Origin: Streptomyces sp. AM 2-1-1
Lineage (GTDB): Bacteria; Actinomycetota; Actinomycetes; Streptomycetales; Streptomycetaceae
DNA: 64,000 bases
Direction: 5' to 3'
NCBI RefSeq assembly: GCF_029167645.1
Contig: NZ_CP119147.1
Coordinates: forward strand, 3,986,501-4,050,500
Of this stretch, positions 4,378 through 62,067 are shown piece by piece. The position numbers were made by a program, and so were the translations under genes. Numbering within the stretch: the stretch's first letter is position 1; every line of letters begins with the position of its first letter. Below the pieces are notes generated by a model. That model was given only the letters and a program-made list of their open reading frames with translations. It made no database searches and was not told where the DNA came from.

Positions 4378-5607
4378 TCAGGCGCGGACGGGGGTGGCGG
4401 TGAGGTAGTCGGCCAGGGCGTCGAGCAGGCGGTCGGCGTCCTCCTCGCTGCTGTACGGCGCCAGGCCGACGCGCAGCCCGCCGCCGTCGCCGAGGCCGAG
4501 GTGGCGGCTGGCCTCCAGGGCGTAGAAGGAGCCGGCGGGCGCGTCGACCCCGCGTGCGGCGAGGTGGCGGGAGGCGTCCGCGGCGGAGCGGCCGGGGAAG
4601 GTGAGCAGCAGGGTCGGGGTGCGCAGGGCCGCGCGGGAGCGCACGGTGATGCCGTCGAGTGCGGCGAGGCCGGTCTCGATGCGGACGCGCAGGGCGTCCT
4701 CGTGGGTCTCGATCGCCTCGAAGGCGGCGGCCAGGCGCTCGCGCCGGGAGGCGGTGGCGGGGGTGGCGGCGGGCGCGAGGGTGGCGAGGAAGTCCACGGC
4801 GGCGCGGGCGGCGGCCAGCGACTCGTAGGGCAGGGTGCCGAGTTCGAGGCGTTCGGGGACCGCGTCGGTCGACGGCAGCAGCTTGTCGGGGTGGAGGGTC
4901 TCCAGCAGCTCGGGCCGGCTCGCCAGGACGCCGAGGTGCGGGCCGAGGAACTTGTACGGGGAGCACACCAGGAAGTCGGCTCCGACGGCGGCGAGCTCGA
5001 CCGGGGCGTGGGCGGCGAGGTGCACGGCGTCCACGTGCAGCAGCGCGCCCGCGCGGTGCACCAGGTCGGCGATCGCGGGCAGGTCGGGGCGGGTGCCGAC
5101 GAGGTTGGAGGCGCCGGTGACGGCGACCAGCCGGGTGCGGTCGCTGAGCGCGTCGGCGACGTGGTGGGCCGTCAGTTCTGTGCTGTACGGGTCGAATTCG
5201 GCCCACCGGACGCTCGCGCCCACCGCTTCCGCGGCCTGGATCCACGGGCGGATGTTGGCGTCGTGGTCGAGGCGGCTGACCACCACCTCGTCCCCGGGGC
5301 CCCAGTTCTTCGCGAGGGTGCGGGCGAGGTCGTAGGTGAGCTGGGTGGAGCTGCGTCCGAAGACGATGCCGCGCGGGTCCGCCCCGAGCAGGTCCGCGAG
5401 TGCGGAGCGGGCACCGAGGACGATGGCCTCGGCGTTGCGCTCGCCTTCGTTCTGGGTGCCCCGTACGGCGAGCGGGTGGGCCAGCGCGTCGACGACTGCG
5501 TCGATCACCGGCTGCGGGGTCTGCGTACCCCCGGGGGCGTCGAAGCGGGCCGAGCCGGACTTCAGGGCGGGGATCTGCGCGCGGACCGCGTGGACGTCGT
5601 AGGACAT
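4378..5607 (-). CDS. Cysteine desulfurase-like class V aminotransferase
   Basis: 409-residue PLP-dependent fold-type I enzyme. Residues GASNLVGTRPDL, HVDAVHLAAH and CSPYKFLGPH are the class V signature; Lys219 in SPYKF is the predicted PLP Schiff-base lysine. It resembles the CsdA/SufS-like subgroup of unknown substrate rather than a true desulfurase, since I see no mobile-loop RSGxHCA motif. I chose the ATG at 5605-5607 (MSYDVHAVRAQIPAL) because a GGAG lies 5 bases upstream; the open frame runs further but has no coding character. It is divergent from the next gene across a 181-base shared promoter region. Confidence 0.88.
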   Translation of the reverse strand: MSYDVHAVRAQIPALKSGSARFDAPGGTQTPQPVIDAVVDALAHPLAVRGTQNEGERNAEAIVLGARSALADLLGADPRGIVFGRSSTQLTYDLARTLAKNWGPGDEVVVSRLDHDANIRPWIQAAEAVGASVRWAEFDPYSTELTAHHVADALSDRTRLVAVTGASNLVGTRPDLPAIADLVHRAGALLHVDAVHLAAHAPVELAAVGADFLVCSPYKFLGPHLGVLASRPELLETLHPDKLLPSTDAVPERLELGTLPYESLAAARAAVDFLATLAPAATPATASRRERLAAAFEAIETHEDALRVRIETGLAALDGITVRSRAALRTPTLLLTFPGRSAADASRHLAARGVDAPAGSFYALEASRHLGLGDGGGLRVGLAPYSSEEDADRLLDALADYLTATPVRA

Positions 5608-5788
5608 GCGTACTCCGGTGGGTGGGGCGGTGGGCGACGGGCCCGCTGGGCCCGGGGGCGGCGTACGGGTGGCGCCCCGGACATCGATGGTGCCTGGTGG
5701 GGGCGGGGTCCGCGCGGGCGGGTCGGCGGCGCCCCCCGGGAGCTGCCATCCTGACCTGCGGAACATCTGAGCGGGAGGGGCGGCGCCA

Positions 5789-6535
5789 GTGGTGACCGAC
5801 GAGGGGCGGGCGATCGGCGATGCGCGAGGAAGCGGAGCCGGAGACGGAGCCGCGGACGGGCGGGCGACCGGCAGGGCGTGCGGCGCCGGGGGAGAACCCA
5901 CGGGGGCGGCGGGACCGCGTACGGGCGCCGATCCGCACGCCCTCGTGCCGCCGACCCGGGCCCGCGGCACGGTCGTCCTGCTGAACGGGGCCTCCAGCTC
6001 GGGCAAGTCGAGCATCGCCCGCGCGCTCCTCGCCTCGCTCGACGGGAGCTGGTTCCACCTGCCGGTGGATGCCTTCCACGCGATGCGCGGCGGCAGCCCC
6101 CTGGCGGCGGAGGACCTTCCGGCGGAGATCGACCGGACCGTCAAGGGGTTCCACCGCGCGGTGGCCGGGATGGCGGCGGCGGGGAACAACCTCGTCGTCG
6201 ACCTCCCCCTCAGCCGTCGCTGGCGCCTGCTGGACCTGCTCGCGCTGCTGGTGCCGCAGGACACGGTGCTGGTGGCGGTCCGCTGCCCGCTGCCGGAACT
6301 CGAGCGCCGGGAGGCGGCGCGCGGCGACCGCACGCCGGGGCTGGCGGCGCTCCAGTTTCCCGTCGTCCACGCGCACGGTCCGCACGACCTCGACGTCGAC
6401 ACCGAGGCGTACGGCCCCGAGGAGTGCGCCCGGCGCGTCCGTGACTTCCTGCTGGTCCGCCCGCGCCCCACGGCCTTCGAGAGCCTGCGGCGTACGTACC
6501 TGCCCGGGCCGGCGCCGACCGGACCGGCTCAGTAG
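5789..6535 (+). CDS. Chloramphenicol phosphotransferase-like P-loop kinase
   Basis: 248 residues. The P-loop GASSSGKS at residues 67-74, the VDAFHAMRGG motif with Asp94, and the RCPLPELERRE stretch match the CPT family, which phosphorylates the C3 hydroxyl of chloramphenicol. The family is normally about 180 residues; here a Gly/Ala-rich 60-residue N-terminal extension precedes the core, so translation may begin later. The GTG start at 5789 has GGGAGGGG at about 9 bases. The true substrate is unknown; many CPT-like proteins are not chloramphenicol enzymes. Its 3' end overlaps the convergent HAD gene by 7 bases. Confidence 0.8.
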   Translation: MVTDEGRAIGDARGSGAGDGAADGRATGRACGAGGEPTGAAGPRTGADPHALVPPTRARGTVVLLNGASSSGKSSIARALLASLDGSWFHLPVDAFHAMRGGSPLAAEDLPAEIDRTVKGFHRAVAGMAAAGNNLVVDLPLSRRWRLLDLLALLVPQDTVLVAVRCPLPELERREAARGDRTPGLAALQFPVVHAHGPHDLDVDTEAYGPEECARRVRDFLLVRPRPTAFESLRRTYLPGPAPTGPAQ

Positions 6536-7182
6536 CCGGCGGCCAGCAGCGCCGGCAGGGCGCGCATGTCGTCGAAGACGACGGTGCCGGGGCCTTCGAG
6601 GCGGGCCGCCGGGGTGAGCCCGCCGCTGTAGCCGAAGGACCGCATGCCGGCGGCGCGGGCGGCGGCGACCCCGTACGCGCTGTCCTCGATCACCGCGCAG
6701 CGTGCCGGGTCGGCGCCCAGGGTGCGGGCCGCGTGCAGGAACAGGTCGGGGGCGGGCTTGCCCCGGGCGACGTCGGCGGCGCTGAAGACGCGGCCCTCGA
6801 AGTGGTGGCCCAGGGCGGTGGTGGTCAGGCTGCGGCGGATGGAGCGGTGGGAGCCGTTGGAGGCGAGGCAGTACGGGATGGTGAGCGCCGCCAGTACCTC
6901 GGGAATGCCGTCCACCGGGGTCAGTTCGGCGAGCGCCGCGTGGTAGAGGTGCGTGTAGGGCTCGTCCCAGTCGTCGGCGAGCGTCCTGCCGAGCCGTTCC
7001 TCCAGCGCCGCCCGCAGCACCTCCACCGAGGAGCCCACGAACCGTTCGATGATCTCGGCCTCGGTGAACGGCGCGCCCAGCTCCGCCATGACGGCCGCGT
7101 CCACCGTGACGTAGATGCGCTCGCTGTCCACCAGGACGCCGTCGCAGTCGAAGATCACCAGGTCGAAGGGGTTCGTGGTCAT
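6529..7182 (-). CDS. HAD-superfamily phosphatase, beta-phosphoglucomutase-like
   Basis: 217 residues with all HAD motifs: FDCDGVLVDS (nucleophile Asp12, acid/base Asp14), CLASNGS (motif II), GKPAPD (motif III lysine) and VIEDSAYGV (motif IV). An alpha-helical cap between residues 20 and 85 places it in the beta-phosphoglucomutase/phosphoglycolate-phosphatase-like group; the substrate cannot be told. The ATG at 7180-7182 follows a repeat-rich region that must hold its promoter. The last 7 bases overlap the convergent kinase gene, so no terminator separates the two. Confidence 0.9.
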   Translation of the reverse strand: MTTNPFDLVIFDCDGVLVDSERIYVTVDAAVMAELGAPFTEAEIIERFVGSSVEVLRAALEERLGRTLADDWDEPYTHLYHAALAELTPVDGIPEVLAALTIPYCLASNGSHRSIRRSLTTTALGHHFEGRVFSAADVARGKPAPDLFLHAARTLGADPARCAVIEDSAYGVAAARAAGMRSFGYSGGLTPAARLEGPGTVVFDDMRALPALLAAGY

Positions 7183-16329: not shown

Positions 16330-16989
16330 TCAGGGCAGCAGGCGTTCCTCGTTGGCTTTGGCGACCGCTCCGGCACGGGTCTCGACGCCGAGCTTGTCGT
16401 AGATGCGTCCCAGGTGGGTCTTGACCGTCGCCTCGCTGATGAAGAGCGCGCGGGCGATGTCCCGGTTGCCGAGCCCCCGGGCGAGCTGCCCGAGGATGTC
16501 CCGCTCGCGGTCGGTGAGGACGGGCGCGGGCGTACGCAGGCGGGCCATCACCCGGTCCGCGACGGGCGGCGAGAGCGTGGTGCGGCCCACCGCGGCGGCC
16601 CGGATCGCGGCGAACAACTCCTCGGGGCGCTCCGCCTTCAGCAGGTAGCCGGTGGCTCCGGCCCCGATCGCCCGTGTGATGTCGGCGTCGGTGTCGTACG
16701 TCGTGAGGACGAGGACGTGCGGCGCCGGCCCGCGTTCTTCCGCGCCGTCTCCGGCCGCGTGGGCGGTGATCCGGCGGGTGGCTTCGACGCCGTCGATGCC
16801 GGGCCCGAGCTGGAGGTCCATCAGGACGACGTCCGGGGCGAGCCGGGCGGCCAGTACCACCGCCTCCTCGCCGCTGCCGGCTTCGGCCACGACGTCGAGG
16901 TCCGGTTCGCTGCCGAGGAGGGCGAGCAGCCCGGCGCGCACGACGGCGTGATCGTCGCAGACCAGGACGCGTACGGTACGGCGGTTCAT
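16330..16989 (-). CDS. LuxR-type response regulator, SenR-like
   Basis: 219 residues: a receiver domain with the acidic pair CDDH (residues 11-14) and phospho-acceptor Asp58 in VVLMDLQLG, then a NarL/LuxR helix-turn-helix (LTDRERDILGQLARGLGNRDIA...ISEATVKTHLGRIYDKLG). It should bind DNA after phosphorylation by the kinase encoded just upstream. The ATG overlaps the kinase stop as ATGA, which indicates translational coupling. With the kinase and the divergent heme-binding protein it matches the SenS-SenR-HbpS layout of streptomycetes. Confidence 0.93.
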   Translation of the reverse strand: MNRRTVRVLVCDDHAVVRAGLLALLGSEPDLDVVAEAGSGEEAVVLAARLAPDVVLMDLQLGPGIDGVEATRRITAHAAGDGAEERGPAPHVLVLTTYDTDADITRAIGAGATGYLLKAERPEELFAAIRAAAVGRTTLSPPVADRVMARLRTPAPVLTDRERDILGQLARGLGNRDIARALFISEATVKTHLGRIYDKLGVETRAGAVAKANEERLLP

Positions 16990-18386
16990 CCGGACTCCTG
17001 TGGGGTGACGGGTTCCCGCGTGAGGGCGGACCGGGTGCCCGGCAGCGGGATCTCCGCCGACAGCACGGTGCCCTCGCCGGGGGACGACTCGATGGTCAGC
17101 CGTCCGCCGAGCTGCCGTACCCGGGCGCGTATCGCGGGCAGCCCGTGACCGCGGCCGGACACGGTGCCGTCGGGTGCTCCGCCCGCCGCCGGGCCGTCCG
17201 TGGCGAAGCCGCGACCGTCGTCCGCGACGTCGAGGACGACCCGGTCGTCGAGGTGGGTGAGGGTGAGCCCGGCGGTGGCCGCACCGGCGTGCTCGGTGAC
17301 GTTGGCCAGCGCGCCCTGGGCGATGCGCAGCAGCGCCGACTGCACCCGGTCCGGCAGGGGGCTCCGCGCGGATCCCTCCACGTGGCAGCGCACGGCCGGC
17401 CCGCCCGTCGCGGTGGTCCGGGCGGCGAGCGCGCCGAGGGCCGCCTCCAGCCCTTCGCCCGCCGCGAGGTCGGCCGGTGCCAGGTCGTGGACGAAGCGCC
17501 GGGCCTCGGCGAGGTTGCGGGCCGCGATGCCGGCCGCCGTACGGACGTGGGCGCGGGCGGTGCCCGGCTCGGTCTCCCAGGTGCGGTCGGCCGCCTGGAG
17601 CAGCATCCGCTGGCTGGAGAGACCCTGCGCGAGGGTGTCGTGGATCTCCATGGCGAGCCGCTGGCGCTCGGCGAGGGTGCCCTCGCGGCGTTCGGTCGCG
17701 GCCAGTTCGCGCCGGGTCAGGACCAGGTCGTCGATGAGTTGGCGCTGGCGTACGGCGAGTTCCTGCTGCCGGTCGGCCTGGCGGCGTACGTGGACGAGCA
17801 CGGCGGTCGCCACGGCGGCGACGGCGGGCGGCGCCAGCACGAGGTTGGGGTCGAAGCCGGTCGCCAGCCGCAGCTGTGCGGCCACCACGAACGCGGTGAG
17901 CAGGGTGACCAGGACGAGTGCGGCGCGGGGCGGGAGCAGTCGCAGCCCGGTGGAGAAGAGCGGTACGGCGCACCACGCGAAGCTCGGCGCCAGGACGACC
18001 AGCACCATCCAGACGGCGACGAGCCCCGCGAGCCAGGCGAACCGGCGCGGGGTGGGCCGCGAGCCGAGCACCGGGCCGAGGGCGTACACGAGGGCGAGGG
18101 CGGCGGAGAGCCCGACGATCCACGGCGTCCGGGCCTCCCCGGGATGGCGCATCAGGAACCGGGTGAGCGAGGCGCCCAGCAGCAGGAAGAAGGCGGCGTG
18201 CAGCAGCAGCGCCAGCCACCGGGCATCGGGGTCCGGGGTGTGCGCCACGGACGATCCGGGTCCGCGCGGGTCCGCCGCGAGCCTCTCCGCCGGGCTCTCC
18301 CGCCCCGGGACGTCGTGCGCCGGGCCGTCGTGCGCCGGGCCGTCGCGCTCCGGTTCCCCGTGCGCCGGGCCGCCTCTCCGCCGCAC
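16986..18386 (-). CDS. Sensor histidine kinase (HisKA_3 type), SenS-like
   Basis: 466 residues. After a Pro/His/Asp-rich N-terminus with repeats of GPAHD come five predicted membrane helices (about 57-79, 89-108, 116-135, 150-172 and 183-200). A coiled region follows, then the DHp motif AMEIHDTLAQGLSSQ with phospho-His249 and an ATPase domain (DVADDGRGF, GHGLPAIRARV). Five membrane helices and the NarL-family partner agree with SenS, which senses redox stress through the secreted HbpS. The GTG start at 18384-18386 has AGGTGG 5 bases upstream. The 15-bp DNA repeats behind the N-terminal GPAHD copies suggest length variation. Confidence 0.9.
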   Translation of the reverse strand: MRRRGGPAHGEPERDGPAHDGPAHDVPGRESPAERLAADPRGPGSSVAHTPDPDARWLALLLHAAFFLLLGASLTRFLMRHPGEARTPWIVGLSAALALVYALGPVLGSRPTPRRFAWLAGLVAVWMVLVVLAPSFAWCAVPLFSTGLRLLPPRAALVLVTLLTAFVVAAQLRLATGFDPNLVLAPPAVAAVATAVLVHVRRQADRQQELAVRQRQLIDDLVLTRRELAATERREGTLAERQRLAMEIHDTLAQGLSSQRMLLQAADRTWETEPGTARAHVRTAAGIAARNLAEARRFVHDLAPADLAAGEGLEAALGALAARTTATGGPAVRCHVEGSARSPLPDRVQSALLRIAQGALANVTEHAGAATAGLTLTHLDDRVVLDVADDGRGFATDGPAAGGAPDGTVSGRGHGLPAIRARVRQLGGRLTIESSPGEGTVLSAEIPLPGTRSALTREPVTPQESG

Positions 18387-54834: not shown

Positions 54835-55079
54835 GCCATGCCTTTCCTGGTGGGCGCCGGACACATGATCGTGTCGGCGATGCGGCGATCCTCTCCCAGC
54901 CGACGGGAGGAAAAACGGATCGGCACGCGCGGCACACGGACGAGTGACCGGCCCCGCGCACCCTTCCGGTGGCCCGTCCGGTCCACCGGCCCGCGGCCCC
55001 CGACGCCTACCGCGCGGAGTCGCGGTCGGGGCGGTGGGCGCCGTGGGAGGGGTTCAGCGGGTGGGGTGACAATGGAGCC

Positions 55080-55448
55080 ATGGAGCCGAACCCCCTGGAA
55101 CAGGCGTTGCACACCGCCCGAGCCCTCGTCGTGGCCGACCTGGCGGCGGGCGACGTCGCGGACGCCGACATCGTCTCCCTCGTGGAGGACGCGGTGACCC
55201 AGCGGCGCTGGTGGGTGGAGCAGTGGCCGGACGGCATGGACTTCCTCGTCGGGCTGATCGCCCAGGACGTCCAGGACGCCCTGCTCGAACGGTACGGACG
55301 GTGGCCGCTCTGCCCCGTCTGCGACGAGGGCGGCCCGCACGCGCTCGACGTCGAGCCCGAACTCGGCGCCGACCCGCACTGGGTCTGCACCCGCGCCACC
55401 GTCTCCGTGGCCCCGGTCGGCGCGCTCGCCGGAGTGCTGCGACGGTGA
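55080..55448 (+). CDS. Small protein of unknown function with Cys pairs
   Basis: 122 residues. An acidic helical N-terminus, then LCPVCDEGGPHALDVEPELGADPHWVCTRATV, a possible partial zinc site (CPVC and a distant Cys). Not recognised. A GACAAT box (55068-55073) lies 6 bases before the ATG, a leaderless layout. The stop overlaps the next start as GTGA, so it is coupled to the DUF4031 gene. Confidence 0.78.
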   Translation: MEPNPLEQALHTARALVVADLAAGDVADADIVSLVEDAVTQRRWWVEQWPDGMDFLVGLIAQDVQDALLERYGRWPLCPVCDEGGPHALDVEPELGADPHWVCTRATVSVAPVGALAGVLRR

Positions 55449-55732
55449 CCGTCTACATAGACCCGCCGACCTGGCCGGGCCACGGCCGGCTCTGGTCGCA
55501 CCTGGTCAGTGACGAGTCGTTCGACGAGCTCCACGCCTTCGCCGCCGCCATCGGCTGCCCGCCCCGCGCCTTCGAACGCGACCACTACGACGTCCCGCAG
55601 ACGCGTTACCAGGACGCGGTGCGCGCCGGAGCACGGGAGATCGGCTCCAAGGAACTGGTCCGCCGCCTCACCGAGGCCGGCCTGCGCCGCCCGAAGGGCC
55701 GCCCCGCACCGGGCCCCGCGGCCACGGCCTGA
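55445..55732 (+). CDS. DUF4031 protein
   Basis: 95 residues. MTVYIDPPTWPGHGRLWSHLVSDESFDELHAFAAAIGCPPRAFERDHYDVP and AREIGSKELVRRLTEAGLRR are the DUF4031 pattern. His/Asp-rich, possibly metal-binding; function unknown. The GTG start overlaps the stop of the preceding gene by 4 bases. Confidence 0.92.
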   Translation: MTVYIDPPTWPGHGRLWSHLVSDESFDELHAFAAAIGCPPRAFERDHYDVPQTRYQDAVRAGAREIGSKELVRRLTEAGLRRPKGRPAPGPAATA

Positions 55733-57350: not shown

Positions 57351-57524
57351 ATGGCTGCCGATGAGAAGACCCAGGCCAAGGTGGAGCAGACCAAGGGCAA
57401 GGTCAAGGAGACGGCCGGCCGGACCGTGGGCAACGAACGCCTCACCGCCGCGGGCCGCGCCGACCAGGCCAAGGGCGATGCCCGCGAGGCCAAGGAGAAG
57501 ACGAAGGACGCGTTCAAGCACTGA
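57351..57524 (+). CDS. CsbD-family stress protein
   Basis: 57 residues, hydrophilic and helical: QAKVEQTKGKVKETAGRTVGNERLTAAGRADQAKGDAREAKEKTKDA is the CsbD pattern. Usually under general-stress sigma control; function unknown. The ATG at 57351 has GGGAG 6 bases upstream. Confidence 0.95.
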   Translation: MAADEKTQAKVEQTKGKVKETAGRTVGNERLTAAGRADQAKGDAREAKEKTKDAFKH

Positions 57525-57716: not shown

Positions 57717-58751
57717 GTGGGCACGATCGCCGGCCCCCCTCAGCAGTCCGCCCCCGGGATACCGGAAGCACCGGACGGCGCCGCGCTGCGCGCCGTCGCG
57801 GCCGAGCGCTTCGCGTCCTGGGTGCGCGACAGCGCGACGGAGGTCCCGCTGCCCGGGTCCGGGCGCACCTGGGAGAGGTTCCAGGCGCTGCACGGACTGG
57901 GCCGGGAGGATCTGGCCCTGGCCCGGCTGGCGGAGGGCCACGCCGACGCGGTGGCCATCCTCGCCGAACTCGGCGCGACCGCCCCGGCCCCGGGTGAGCG
58001 CTGGGGCGTGTGGGCCGCCCAGCCCCCGGGCGCCCGGCTGACGGCACGGCCCCGCTCCGACGGACTCTGGTCGCTGGACGGGGTGAAGCCCTTCTGCTCG
58101 GGCGCCCACAGCTGTACCCACGCGCTGGTCACCGCCGACACCGAGGAGGGCCGGCGGCTCTTCGCCCTCGCCACGGCCGTACCCGGTTACGCCCCGGTGC
58201 CCGGCACCTGGCAGGCGATCGGGATGGCGGGCAGCGACACACCCGACGTGCGGTTCACCGACGTGCCGGCCGTGCCGGTGGGCGAGGTCGACGCGTACGT
58301 CCGGCGGCCCGGGTTCGCCCACGGGGGCATCGGGGTGGCCGCCTGCTGGCTGGGCGGTGCGCGCGGGGTCGCCGACGCCCTGTTCGCCTCCGCCGGCCGC
58401 CGCGCACCCGACCAGCTCGCCGCCGCCCACCTGGGCGCGGTGGACGTCGCCCTGCACGGGGCGGAGTGCGTGCTGCGGGTCGCCGCCGCCGAGATCGACG
58501 CCGATCCTGCGGACCGCGGCGGCGACGCGGCGCTGCGCGCCATGCGGGCCCGGGCGGCCGTGGAACGGGTCGGCGCTCTGGTGCTCGACCACGTCGGACG
58601 GGCGCTGGGTGCCGGACCGCTCTGCCACGACGCCCGGCACGCCCGGCGGGTCGCCGACCTCACCGTCTACCTGCGTCAGCACCACGCGGACCGCGACCTC
58701 GCCGCCTTGGGCACCGCGCTGGTCGCACCGGAAGGGAGCGCGGGCCGATGA
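57717..58751 (+). CDS. Acyl-CoA dehydrogenase-like protein (cassette gene 1)
   Basis: 344 residues. A helical N-terminus, the middle beta domain (LDGVKPFCSGAHSCTHALVTAD, FTDVPAVPVGEV) and a C-terminal helical domain (GGARGVADALFA, AAAEIDADPADRGGDAALRAMRARAAVERVG) follow the ACAD fold. The usual catalytic Glu cannot be placed with confidence, so it may be a hydroxylase- or oxidase-type relative acting on a carrier-bound or glycosylated substrate. The GTG at 57717 has GGAG 6 bases upstream. Its stop overlaps the next start as ATGA. Confidence 0.85.
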   Translation: MGTIAGPPQQSAPGIPEAPDGAALRAVAAERFASWVRDSATEVPLPGSGRTWERFQALHGLGREDLALARLAEGHADAVAILAELGATAPAPGERWGVWAAQPPGARLTARPRSDGLWSLDGVKPFCSGAHSCTHALVTADTEEGRRLFALATAVPGYAPVPGTWQAIGMAGSDTPDVRFTDVPAVPVGEVDAYVRRPGFAHGGIGVAACWLGGARGVADALFASAGRRAPDQLAAAHLGAVDVALHGAECVLRVAAAEIDADPADRGGDAALRAMRARAAVERVGALVLDHVGRALGAGPLCHDARHARRVADLTVYLRQHHADRDLAALGTALVAPEGSAGR

Positions 58752-59569
58752 CCGCCCCGACCGGCCCCGGCACGGGGGCGGCGCCGAGAACCGGCCCGGA
58801 CGCGGCGGCCGGACGGGAACGGGCCGCCGCCCTCCTCCGCGCCGACGGCACCCCCGAGGCGGAGTGGGCGCGGTGGGACGGCTGGAAGACGATCGGTACC
58901 GCTCCGCGGATCGAGGGGCCGGTGGTCGTGGTCGCCGCCCACCCCGACGACGAGGTGCTGGGGGTCGGCGGCACCCTGGCCCGGCTCACCGCAGCCGGTA
59001 CCGAGGTGCACGTCGTCACCGTCACCGACGGCGAGGCGTCCCATCCGGGCAGCCGCCGCGTACCCCCGGACGCCCTGGCCCGCCTGCGCGCCGGGGAACT
59101 CGCCGTCGCCCTGGACGACCTGGGCGTCGACCGGGGGCGGCGCACCCGCCTCGGAGTGCCGGACACCCGGGTGGACGCGTACGAGGACGAGGTCGCCGGG
59201 CGTCTCGCGGACGCGGTGCGGGCCGGCGGGGCCCGGCTCTGCCTGGCGCCGTGGACCGGCGATCTGCACGCCGACCACGAGGCGGCGGGCCGGGCGGCGC
59301 GCACGGCCGTACGGGACACCGGGGCCGCGCTCTGGTACTACCCGGTGTGGACCTGGCACTGGGCCGCGCCCGGTGACGACCGGGTGCCCTGGGACTCCGT
59401 GCGCCGCCTGCCCCTCACCGCCGGCGAGCAGGCCCGCAAGGCGCGGGCGATCAGCCGGTTCCGCACCCAGACCGCCCCGCTGGCGGACGATCCCGACGAC
59501 CCCACCGTCATCCTGCCGCCGGCCGAACTGCTCCACCACCGACGCCCCTTCGAGGTGATCCTGCTGTGA
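58748..59569 (+). CDS. PIG-L (LmbE)-family deacetylase (cassette gene 2)
   Basis: 273 residues. The zinc motif AAHPDDEVLGVGG (His65, Asp67/Asp68) and the distal LCLAPWTGDLHADHEAAGRA with the third His are intact, so N-deacetylation of an acetylated amino sugar or similar glycoconjugate is likely. Known relatives are MshB, Mca and GlcNAc-PI deacetylase; this one differs and carries a 45-residue N-terminal extension. It is translationally coupled on both sides (ATGA with gene 1, GTGA with gene 3). Confidence 0.92.
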   Translation: MTAPTGPGTGAAPRTGPDAAAGRERAAALLRADGTPEAEWARWDGWKTIGTAPRIEGPVVVVAAHPDDEVLGVGGTLARLTAAGTEVHVVTVTDGEASHPGSRRVPPDALARLRAGELAVALDDLGVDRGRRTRLGVPDTRVDAYEDEVAGRLADAVRAGGARLCLAPWTGDLHADHEAAGRAARTAVRDTGAALWYYPVWTWHWAAPGDDRVPWDSVRRLPLTAGEQARKARAISRFRTQTAPLADDPDDPTVILPPAELLHHRRPFEVILL

Positions 59570-60234
59570 CGTCCGACCCGACCGGACCGGACACCGGGGC
59601 GGCCACCGGACCCGACGTCTCCACGCCGGCGTCGTACTTCGCCCGGATGTACACCGGCACGGCGGACCCCTGGGACCTCGCCGGGCGCTGGTACGAACAG
59701 CGCAAGTACGCGCTGACCCTGGCGGCACTGCCCCGCCGCCGCTACCGCAGGGCCTTCGAACCGGGCTGCTCGGTGGGCGTCCTGACCCGGCTGCTCGCCG
59801 ACCGGTGCGACGCGGTGCTCGCCACCGACCGGGTGCCCGCCGCCGTCGCCGAGGCCGCCGCCCGCACCCGCGACCTGCCGCACGTGGAGGTACGCGCCCT
59901 CACGGTGCCCGAGGAGTGGCCCGAGGGCACCTTCGACCTGGTCGTCCTCTCCGAGCTGCTCTACTACTTCGACGGGGCCGCGTTCACCGAGATCCTGACG
60001 CGCACGGTCGGCTCGCTGGAACCGGGCGGCACCCTGGTGACCGTGCACTGGAACCACCCGGTGCCCGAACACCGGCTCACCGGCACCCAGGTGGCGCCCC
60101 TGCTGCGGGAGGTGCCGGGCCTGGTCGCCGGGCCGGAGTTCCACGACCCCGACTTCGTCCTCACTCTCCACCACCGCCCCCTGGCGGACGGTTCGGCGCC
60201 GCCCTCCCCGGCCCGCGCCGAGGGGCTGGTGTGA
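59566..60234 (+). CDS. NodS-like SAM-dependent methyltransferase (cassette gene 3)
   Basis: 222 residues. SYFARMYTGTADPWDLAGRWYEQRKYALTLAALP precedes the SAM loop FEPGCSVGVLT (64-73), and FDLVVLSELLYYFD is the post-II motif. This is the NodS/nodulation-type N-methyltransferase group, which in rhizobia methylates the free amine made by NodB. GTG start overlaps gene 2 by 4 bases. Confidence 0.92.
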   Translation: MTSDPTGPDTGAATGPDVSTPASYFARMYTGTADPWDLAGRWYEQRKYALTLAALPRRRYRRAFEPGCSVGVLTRLLADRCDAVLATDRVPAAVAEAAARTRDLPHVEVRALTVPEEWPEGTFDLVVLSELLYYFDGAAFTEILTRTVGSLEPGGTLVTVHWNHPVPEHRLTGTQVAPLLREVPGLVAGPEFHDPDFVLTLHHRPLADGSAPPSPARAEGLV

Positions 60235-61013
60235 AGCGGCGCGTCACCGGGCTGGTGGTCGCCATCCCGGCGCACGACGAGGCGGAAGACCTGCCGGAGG
60301 CGCTGCGGGCCGTCCGGGCGGCCGACGCCCACGCCCGCCGGCGCCTGGCGGGCGTACCGCCGCTGACCCTGATGGTCGCCGCCGACGCCTGCTCCGACTC
60401 CACCGCGGCGGTGGCCCGCCGGGAGGGCGCCGAGGTGGTGGTGACCGGCCACCGCTCGGCCGGCGCGGCCCGGGCGGAGGCCGTCGCGCGCGGGTTGCGG
60501 AAGGCGGACACGCCCGCCGCGCACACCTGGATAGCCACCACCGACGCCGACAGCCGGGTCCCGGCCGACTGGCTCGCCCACCAGCTGACCTGCGCCCGCG
60601 ACGGCTGGGACTGCGTGCTTGGTACCGTCCGCCTCGCCCCGCCCCGCTCACTGGAGGAGTCGGTCGTACGGGACCTGCACCGCGCGCACTACTTCGCCGA
60701 GCGCCCGGCCGGCACCGGACGCGACTGGGAGCACCCGCACGTGCACGGTGCCAACTTCGGAGTCGCGGCCGCCGCCTACCTGCGCGCCGGGGGCTTCCCC
60801 GCCGTGCCGCACGGCGAGGACCACGCGCTGGCCCGTGCGCTCGCCGACGGCGGAGCGCGTGTACTGCGGACGAACGCCTGTGCCGTGGAGACCTCCGGCC
60901 GGCTGACGCCCCGCGCCCCGCACGGCTTCGGCGCGTTCCTCCACGCGCTCCGGACCGGGGCGGCGCTCGCGGGCGACGCGGTGGGAGAGCCGGTGCGCCC
61001 CGGAGGCGGCTGA
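60231..61013 (+). CDS. Family 2 glycosyltransferase (cassette gene 4)
   Basis: 260 residues, GT-A fold: VVAIPAHDEAEDLPEALRAV, the metal motif TTDADSRVP (105-107 DAD), and HGANFGVAAAAYLRAGGFPAVPHGEDHALARAL with the acidic ED motif. No membrane helices, so cytoplasmic. GTG start overlaps gene 3 as GTGA. It ends the cassette; a 10-bp terminator follows 30 bases later. Donor and acceptor unknown. Confidence 0.93.
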   Translation: MKRRVTGLVVAIPAHDEAEDLPEALRAVRAADAHARRRLAGVPPLTLMVAADACSDSTAAVARREGAEVVVTGHRSAGAARAEAVARGLRKADTPAAHTWIATTDADSRVPADWLAHQLTCARDGWDCVLGTVRLAPPRSLEESVVRDLHRAHYFAERPAGTGRDWEHPHVHGANFGVAAAAYLRAGGFPAVPHGEDHALARALADGGARVLRTNACAVETSGRLTPRAPHGFGAFLHALRTGAALAGDAVGEPVRPGGG

Positions 61014-61218: not shown

Positions 61219-62067
61219 CTACTTCGCGCTCAGCGAGAAGGCGCCCGAGGGTGTCAGGGAGACGGCGCCGGTCGGGACCGGCGAGAGGGCGTTCGCAGGC
61301 GCGGTGGAGGTGGTGCCCGCCGGGGCGGGGGCCGCAGTGGTGCCCGCCGGGGCCGGGGCGGTTCCGGTCGCGGTCTCCCCGGCGTGCTCGACGGGGCGGA
61401 AGTCCGGGTTGGTGACGCAGCCCAGGTTCTCGTAGACGTCCACGTTCGTCTGCGGGTTCTGCCCCGCCCAGTGGTACTGGCACGCCCCCTCGATGAAGCG
61501 GCCCTGGATCCCGCCGGGGAAGTCGATCTCCTTGTTCCACAGGTACTGCGACTGGATACCGGTCATCCGCGCGGTGGCGTTGACGTCGATGCCGCCCGGC
61601 GCCTGGATGGCGTAGACCCAGCCGTTCTTCCCGCCGCCCGTGGCGAAGCCCTGCGCCACCCAGCGGTCGCAACTGGTGCTCAGGTGCGCGGTGTTCTGCC
61701 CGCCACCGCCGATGATCCACTTCGACAGCGGGGTGAGGTCCGTCCCGAGGGGCGTGAAGCCGCTCCGGAAGATCGCCCGGGGGTCCGGCCGGGTGTCCCC
61801 GCGCCACAGCGTGTTGTCGTCGTGGCGCCAGTACCAGCCCTCGCTGATCGCGGTGGTGTCCACCTGCGCCCGGAGCGCGCGGTTCGTCGTCGTCCGCTCC
61901 CAGTCCGACGACCGGTAGCCGCCGGTCGGTCCGCAGGGACCGGTGTCGCGGACCTGCTCCGGGGTGCCGGGGAGCGGGTCGGTGTCGGCGTTCGCCGAGG
62001 AGGCGAAGGTCAGCGAGGTGACGACGAAGCAGGCGGCGGATGCGATCCGCAGCGCGGTCTTGAACAT
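61219..62067 (-). CDS. Secreted pierisin/Scabin-like ADP-ribosyltransferase
   Basis: 282 residues. Signal peptide MFKTALRIASAACFVVTSLT followed by FASSANA cleavage. The three pertussis-toxin-like motifs are visible: Arg89 in TLWRGDTRPDPRAIFRSGF, the STS motif at 130-132, and Glu180 in WNKEIDFPGGI; the residue two before the Glu is Asn178, where Scabin has Gln and many toxins Glu. Four cysteines (45, 133, 196, 217) could form two disulfides. A 55-residue Ala/Thr/Pro tail follows. Homologues modify guanine bases or proteins using NAD+. ATG at 62065-62067 with GAGGGG about 11 bases upstream. Confidence 0.88.
   Translation of the reverse strand: MFKTALRIASAACFVVTSLTFASSANADTDPLPGTPEQVRDTGPCGPTGGYRSSDWERTTTNRALRAQVDTTAISEGWYWRHDDNTLWRGDTRPDPRAIFRSGFTPLGTDLTPLSKWIIGGGGQNTAHLSTSCDRWVAQGFATGGGKNGWVYAIQAPGGIDVNATARMTGIQSQYLWNKEIDFPGGIQGRFIEGACQYHWAGQNPQTNVDVYENLGCVTNPDFRPVEHAGETATGTAPAPAGTTAAPAPAGTTSTAPANALSPVPTGAVSLTPSGAFSLSAK

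Follow-up and report, generated by a model that had tools for sequence, protein, structure and literature searches.

What might a flavoprotein of the acyl-CoA dehydrogenase (ACAD) fold, a deacetylase, a methyltransferase and a glycosyltransferase (GT) make together when their genes overlap by stop and start codons? Such a set lies in a stretch of 64,000 nucleotides from Streptomyces sp. AM 2-1-1 (contig NZ_CP119147.1, positions 3,986,501 to 4,050,500; hereafter the window), on a genome of 7.2 Mb whose nearest protein relatives are Streptomyces. Reading of the open reading frames (ORFs) together with a domain scan located genes for an ACAD-like protein, a PIG-L deacetylase, a NodS-like methyltransferase and a family-2 glycosyltransferase (GT2), in this order, at 57717-61013 on the plus strand, and confirmed the four-gene cassette with ATGA, GTGA and GTGA junctions described in a first-pass annotation. 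Our best reading is that the cassette encodes a widespread amino-sugar pathway, as yet uncharacterised, with a link to stress.

Linkage was analysed in 198 Actinomycetota genomes by two separate searches, one with a profile of the methyltransferase and one with a profile of the ACAD-like protein. At thresholds chosen after the scores were seen (at least 130 bits for the methyltransferase and at least 90 bits for the ACAD-like protein), the ACAD-like gene was located within 0.9 kb in all 19 genomes carrying the methyltransferase, and the methyltransferase was present in 19 of the 21 genomes with an ACAD-like match. The two exceptions were G096, with ACAD-like and PIG-L genes only, and G008, in which the ACAD-like frame is broken. 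With six ACAD-like proteins as queries, a genome scan yielded at least 446 confirmed relatives, from which 80 loci were kept. Taking all sources together, we obtained 119 distinct loci (ACAD-like match, at least 140 bits), after leaving out 26 repeats of places in longer stretches and L151, which is the same as L056. A deacetylase was detected within about 4.5 kb in 105 of these loci (94 PIG-L, 11 CE4), the methyltransferase in 99 and a GT in 93, and all four functions were found in 89. Excluded as non-cassettes were L128 (solo ACAD), L131 and L136 (SfnB-like ACADs with an adjacent FMN reductase), and L014 and L139 (fusions); L137 and L138 carry no annotation.

The gene order is variable. ACAD-PIGL-MT-GT (MT, methyltransferase), the order of the window, was found 41 times, GT-ACAD-PIGL-MT 32 times and CE4-ACAD-MT-GT nine times, and the orders PIGL-MT-GT-ACAD, ACAD-MT-PIGL-GT, GT-PIGL-ACAD-MT and GT-MT-PIGL-ACAD were each observed in a single case. 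The carriers include Actinomycetota, alpha-, beta- and gammaproteobacteria, Deinococcus and Nostoc, thus at least four phyla (Actinomycetota, Pseudomonadota, Deinococcota and Cyanobacteriota), and plasmids carry some of the copies. Since this linkage outlasts reshuffling across wide phylogenetic distances, it points to one pathway. The gene-neighbourhood search therefore upheld the linkage not only in Actinomycetota and Pseudomonadota, for which it had been proposed, but also beyond them; the genes are nearly always adjacent in relatives, and the cassette idea itself is strongly supported. One true-looking fusion of PIG-L and methyltransferase was identified (L144). Two other candidate fusions, GT-ACAD in L137 and PIG-L-MT in L072, were dropped because the linkers of their stop-free frames read like out-of-frame sequence. 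Within the sample, the same-genus carriers were the host itself and one of seven other genomes, and on this ground the cassette is accessory. A DNA-level search (blastn) of the cassette against 50,697 phage records gave no match; proteins were not compared there.

The junctions were examined at 41 distinct loci with the gene order of the window, the window included, and the 4-base overlaps proved to be widely conserved (Table 1). By our own gene calls, overlaps of this length occur in 5 of the 32 same-strand neighbour pairs of the window, and three of these five are the cassette junctions, a density exceeding chance. The other two are at 16330-18386 on the minus strand and at 54969-55732 on the plus strand. 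The overlaps suggest coupling of the four genes, as first proposed; stoichiometry is not set by overlaps, and the fixed product ratio that had been drawn from them goes a step beyond the coupling. Between the upstream CsbD gene and the cassette, a GC-rich inverted repeat was noted by inspection.

Table 1. The cassette, its junctions and its neighbours (coordinates within the window)
Feature	Coordinates	Strand	Remarks
ACAD-fold flavoprotein, predicted flavin-dependent monooxygenase, N-terminal domain shortened	57717..58751	+	344 aa; GTG start 3' of AAGGAG
PIG-L/LmbE (CE14) N-deacetylase	58748..59569	+	273 aa; metal site intact (H65, D67, D68, H177)
NodS-like S-adenosylmethionine (SAM)-dependent methyltransferase, probably N-	59566..60234	+	222 aa
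Short soluble family-2 glycosyltransferase	60231..61013	+	260 aa; DxD (D105, D107) and ED (E196, D197) kept
ATGA stop-start overlap, ACAD-like/PIG-L	58748..58751	+	4-base overlap in 33/41 loci
GTGA stop-start overlap, PIG-L/NodS-like	59566..59569	+	4-base overlap in 34/41 loci
GTGA stop-start overlap, NodS-like/GT2	60231..60234	+	4-base overlap in 37/40 loci
CsbD-family stress protein, neighbour directly upstream of cassette	57351..57524	+	PF05532, 56.5 bits (scanned from 57345)
Scabin-like ADP-ribosyltransferase-family protein, convergent neighbour, outside cassette	61219-62067	-	PF22596, 62.1 bits

The PIG-L domain of the window protein scored 94 bits in the domain scan, above the cut-off. 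Among solved structures, the cassette PIG-L profile gave its best match with the archaeal diacetylchitobiose deacetylase of family CE14 (93 bits; MshB, 49-50 bits), whose metal-site residues are kept; chitobiose is no more than the nearest analogue of the putative cassette substrate. The HxDD...H motif is present, and H65, D67, D68, H174, D176 and H177 are kept in 10 of 10 PIG-L sequences (for the roles of the metal and catalytic motif residues, see Table 1 of PMC4101496). R114 and D139, kept likewise in all 10, are by position only probably the substrate-binding Arg and Asp. In five loci with ACAD-like and methyltransferase genes and no PIG-L (L027-L031), a CE4 (NodB-family) polysaccharide deacetylase was found in its place in all five. 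Among the 19 methyltransferase-bearing Actinomycetota genomes, PIG-L was present in seven, CE4 in 11 (G076, G163, G109, G058, G065, G041, G053, G130, G152, G184 and G195) and neither in one, so that CE4 replaces PIG-L in 11 of the 12 genomes lacking the latter. According to a passage of PMC6415152, CE4 and CE14, the PIG-L family, comprise most known chito-oligosaccharide deacetylases. Because two unrelated deacetylase families occupy one slot, N-acetyl removal is the conserved step, most likely from an amino sugar.

The CE4-type cassettes share further genes. In all 10 with enough contig, an FAD-dependent oxidoreductase (FAD reductase), whose frame is split in L157 and L163, is located 3' of the methyltransferase; a GT is present in 9 of 9. 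By Pfam, the CE4 assignment was verified for three of these cassettes and that of the FAD reductase for four; the remaining CE4-type calls are by similarity to Rubrobacter proteins. In Cupriavidus (L007), the sole nearby PIG-L gene is displaced and divergent. One CE4-type genome carries, at 5218-6536 of a second locus (L160, G130:C22), an additional pair of NodS-like methyltransferase and CE4 genes without an ACAD-like gene.

The methyltransferase of the window matched Pfam NodS with 45.7 bits, above the cut-off, and its nearest characterised solved relative was NodS (106 bits). The NCBIfam NodS equivalog gave 64.4 against a cut-off of 300, and the enzyme is thus kin to NodS and not NodS itself. 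From this kinship we propose N-methylation. A defence system was considered and rejected, as the methyltransferase, which matched mads_2 at 47.2 bits, was the only cassette protein to give a PADLOC hit.

The GT2 domain scored 37.9 bits, above the cut-off. D105, D107, E196 and D197 are invariant in seven of seven GT sequences, indicating a GT-A fold with DxD and catalytic ED, and the predicted model matches GT2 structures. In Streptomyces sp. NPDC088725, a cassette-type GT2 is fused to a HATPase_c_2 domain (P0159; 43.7 bits), which we take to be of the kind known from stress sigma-factor control (RsbW); the fusion could be an artefact of gene calling.

The ACAD middle domain of the first protein scored 25.4 bits, under the cut-off of 33.3, and the ACAD fold was assigned with high confidence. 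The first 14 ranks in Foldseek were all ACAD-fold monooxygenases, led by the aminosugar N-oxygenase KijD3 and with DnmZ among the top matches. KijD3, ORF36 and DnmZ all appeared in the profile search, which leans to monooxygenases; a narrower profile barely does. By VIA Z score, monooxygenases were tied with ACADs, a measure that does not separate monooxygenases from dehydrogenases. A C-S-G-[AS] motif is common to the cassette protein and DszC/TdsC. KijD3 and DnmZ are termed 'glycoside-modifying N-oxygenases' in a passage of PMC5481743. Unlike the cassette protein, the three aminosugar N-oxygenases belong to antibiotic pathways and KijD3 was solved with a dTDP-sugar (title of 4kcf); identity is about 20%, and the N-terminal domain of the cassette protein is shortened. 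Altogether there is a modest lean of the ACAD-like protein to flavin monooxygenases, the aminosugar N-oxygenases among them. It had been placed in the first-pass annotation as standing in for an acyltransferase; an ACAD fold is not one of acyl transfer, the nearest structures lean elsewhere, and the acyl reading is weak. In Deinococcus radiodurans (L016, 6543-8882), the ACAD-like cassette protein is extended at its N-terminus by a domain of about 420 aa, for which neither a Pfam family nor a solved structure was matched and which by eye resembles a glycoside hydrolase.

The stress link comes from gene neighbourhoods and from one expression study. On 17 annotated plasmid loci, hand-picked for breadth and thus non-random (L006-L013, L015, L016, L127, L129, L130 and L132-L135), a catalase gene was found within the 6-8 kb flanks of the cassette in seven and a trehalose gene in four; in Comamonas the cassette sits between otsA and otsB. 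The whole plasmid collection (7.3 Gb) holds 620 catalase and 369 OtsA places, or about 0.001 per 17 kb. The excess is real; it is not a clean test, because the loci were hand-picked, sphingomonads account for three of the seven, and genes of this kind are more frequent on large soil plasmids. Near 27 Mycobacterium cassettes, we detected small Rho_N-like proteins at 24, CsbD at 20, topoisomerase IB at 14 and catalase at 12. Over the 80 loci, at least one stress marker was near 11 of 38 Streptomyces-like, 24 of 27 Mycobacterium and 5 of 15 other loci; the Mycobacterium loci are closely related and several marker queries were derived from them, so these counts are not independent. CsbD was near none of the 38 Streptomyces-like relatives of the window locus. 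The promoter lead gave no support: a SigB/SigF-like motif in its loose form was present upstream of the cassette at 9 of 81 loci, where 2.4 sites would be expected.

The strongest support for the stress link is published, in expression data for Acinetobacter baumannii, in which ACICU_02432-02435 (glycosyltransferase, SAM-methyltransferase, LmbE and ACAD-related) are marked as one operon in Table 2 of PMC5660220. As reported there, all four drop 31- to 62-fold in two colistin-dependent mutants, and trehalose-6-phosphate synthase and phosphatase (otsBA) and a catalase fall alongside; the findings there are on expression only, and section 8 of that paper gives no function for the four genes. The A. 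baumannii records that we searched hold the four cassette genes in a matching order, and the operon was equated with the cassette by product names, order and species, not by protein alignment. These data are co-expression with stress-protection genes, not stress induction. The neighbouring hypothetical gene ACICU_02436 is listed in the same Table 2 as expressed far above the cassette and falling 138-227-fold with it.

Taken as a whole, we give a probability of about 0.5 to the reading that this is an accessory, stress-linked cassette making a modified amino-sugar conjugate by glycosyl transfer, deacetylation, N-methylation and flavoprotein oxygenation. The sugar transferred by the GT2 would be an N-acetylhexosamine (probably GlcNAc) and its acceptor small or peripheral; PIG-L, or the CE4 enzyme in other lineages, would strip the acetyl group; the NodS-like enzyme would methylate the freed amine; and the ACAD-fold flavoprotein would oxygenate the product, most likely at that nitrogen. 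The analysis establishes the linkage, the deacetylase swap, the intact motifs of deacetylase and GT, and an absence of membrane helices. The chemistry of the glycosyltransferase and deacetylase families is well based; we infer the sugar, acceptor, product, order of steps, oxidation and role as a stress metabolite. As a tentative extension, which we hold possible rather than probable, the products would form an undescribed class of small molecules, namely amino-sugar conjugates that are both N-methylated and N-oxygenated (hydroxylamine- or nitrone-like); they would act alongside trehalose and catalase as redox or desiccation protectants, and CE14 and CE4 enzymes would be interchangeable in their synthesis.

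Several observations weigh against the stress-linked amino-sugar reading. The cassette of G139 (L149) has neither PIG-L nor CE4, an unexplained gap. Stress markers were not enriched at actinobacterial cassettes, being near 2 of 17 as compared with 1 of 19 control stretches drawn from cassette-bearing genomes (L188, of the same species as L133, and L150 were left out). The SigB/SigF-like motif is absent upstream of the cassette in the window, where 2-mismatch sites only were seen, and the EcfG motif was found at none of four alphaproteobacterial or Deinococcus loci. The catalytic Glu of acyl-CoA dehydrogenases is that of the YEGT segment. In hhalign against four plain ACADs, its position falls at column 319, which is L, I, V or C in 54 of 54 sequences, in a low-confidence part of the alignment; an acidic residue, which could serve as a base, stands at column 325 in 53 of 54 ACAD-like sequences, so that loss of the catalytic Glu is unsettled.

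This acid bears directly on an alternative in which the scheme is otherwise unchanged and the ACAD-fold enzyme acts as a nitroalkane-oxidase-like oxidase or dehydrogenase on the N-methylated amine or on a sugar carbon. The secure ACAD fold and the failure of VIA to split the two classes agree with it, and no flavin reductase was seen among the genes of PIG-L-type cassettes. The lean of the profile and Foldseek rankings to monooxygenases, the motif shared with DszC/TdsC and the FAD reductase in CE4-type operons speak against it, and we regard it as unlikely.

About as doubtful is a Nod-factor-like lipo-glycan or surface glycoconjugate, in which the GT2 would build an oligosaccharide, PIG-L and the NodS-like enzyme would modify its end, and the ACAD-like protein would desaturate an acyl chain attached elsewhere. 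The cassette resembles the rhizobial NodC-NodB-NodS(-NodA) system in that a GT2, an N-deacetylase and a NodS-family methyltransferase stand together in one operon. The NodB and NodS parts of the Nod logic suggested in the first-pass annotation are borne out by the nearest methyltransferase relative and by the CE4 swap in 11 related cassettes, and in Novosphingobium (L129) and Sphingobium (L135) the cassette is preceded by three additional glycosyltransferases. The NodC part found no support. NodC is a processive membrane synthase, and QxxRW is a mark of processive GT2 enzymes; in the GT2 of the window, no membrane helix was predicted over its 260 aa and QxxRW was absent by inspection. The chemistry first suggested is half right. 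In most loci, that of the window included, the deacetylase is PIG-L and not CE4, and the four genes include no acyltransferase, flippase or polymerase; NodA is absent from them, and no product of that name occurs in the annotated neighbourhoods viewed, the remainder of the genome being unsearched. By profile and Foldseek rankings, the closest relatives of the added flavoprotein do not appear to be acyl-CoA dehydrogenases, and the cassette extends over four phyla and, on plasmids and in mycobacteria, frequently has stress genes as neighbours.

Breakdown or detoxification of an amino-sugar compound would suit the accessory nature of the cassette and its plasmid-borne copies, and DszC and its kin degrade foreign compounds according to a passage of PMC5481743. 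The GT (93 of 119 loci) and the methyltransferase (99 of 119) are, however, mostly kept, which fits making better than degrading, and we consider this alternative improbable.

Synthesis of mycothiol or bacillithiol (MshA-MshB, BshA-BshB) proceeds by glycosyl transfer, PIG-L deacetylation and then modification of the free amine, a step logic that the cassette resembles equally to that of the Nod factor. If PIG-L were a thiol-pathway deacetylase, as the first-pass annotation had named among better separate roles, it should score as one. It gave 38.5 bits for MshB against a cut-off of 224.35 and 61.1 for BshB1 against 182 in NCBIfam, and MshB (406.8 bits) and the Mca amidase (473.8 bits) are encoded by separate genes in the same genome; a mycothiol or bacillithiol deacetylase was rejected on these grounds. 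No cysteine ligase is among the four genes, and the amine is probably methylated and oxidised rather than coupled to cysteine. A thiol pathway is largely refuted and very improbable, and the cassette is a member of neither Nod-factor nor mycothiol/bacillithiol synthesis. Weakest of all, and hardly credible, is that the genes merely ride the same stress or plasmid islands, as catalase, trehalose and CsbD genes often nearby on plasmids and in mycobacteria might suggest, given the linkage kept over several gene orders and wide phylogenetic distance, the 4-base overlaps, the fusion in L144, and the test in 198 genomes, where linkage of methyltransferase and ACAD-like genes was 19/19 and stress markers were not enriched.

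Incomplete sets were also observed. In Mycobacterium, the ACAD-like gene occurs without methyltransferase, GT or more in nearby open frames at L089, L090, L099, L107 and L111, and with PIG-L but without methyltransferase, GT or more nearby at L080, L081, L088, L091, L108 and L123. These look like decayed cassettes or may reflect a second role of the ACAD-like protein; L111 is near a contig end. Nod-like fusions without an ACAD-like gene were found in glycan-type clusters, namely a long protein of Sulfitobacter indolifex annotated as trifunctional glycosyltransferase/methyltransferase/polysaccharide deacetylase (L014, 3375-6455) and, in Sinorhizobium, a long protein annotated as glycosyltransferase that has a methyltransferase match to the cassette profile (L139, 4477-7479).

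In agreement with the first-pass annotation, no product could be assigned to the four-gene set, since no description of the cassette or its product was found in the open-access full-text literature searched; an unopened paper could hold one. The four-enzyme set, kept across four phyla and in A. baumannii expressed along with trehalose and catalase genes, points to a widespread metabolite for which that literature gave no name. The swap of deacetylase families in one slot pins one chemical step of its formation without experiment. If the amino-sugar reading is true, the names 'acyl-CoA dehydrogenase' and 'nodulation' that databases attach to these genes would be corrected.

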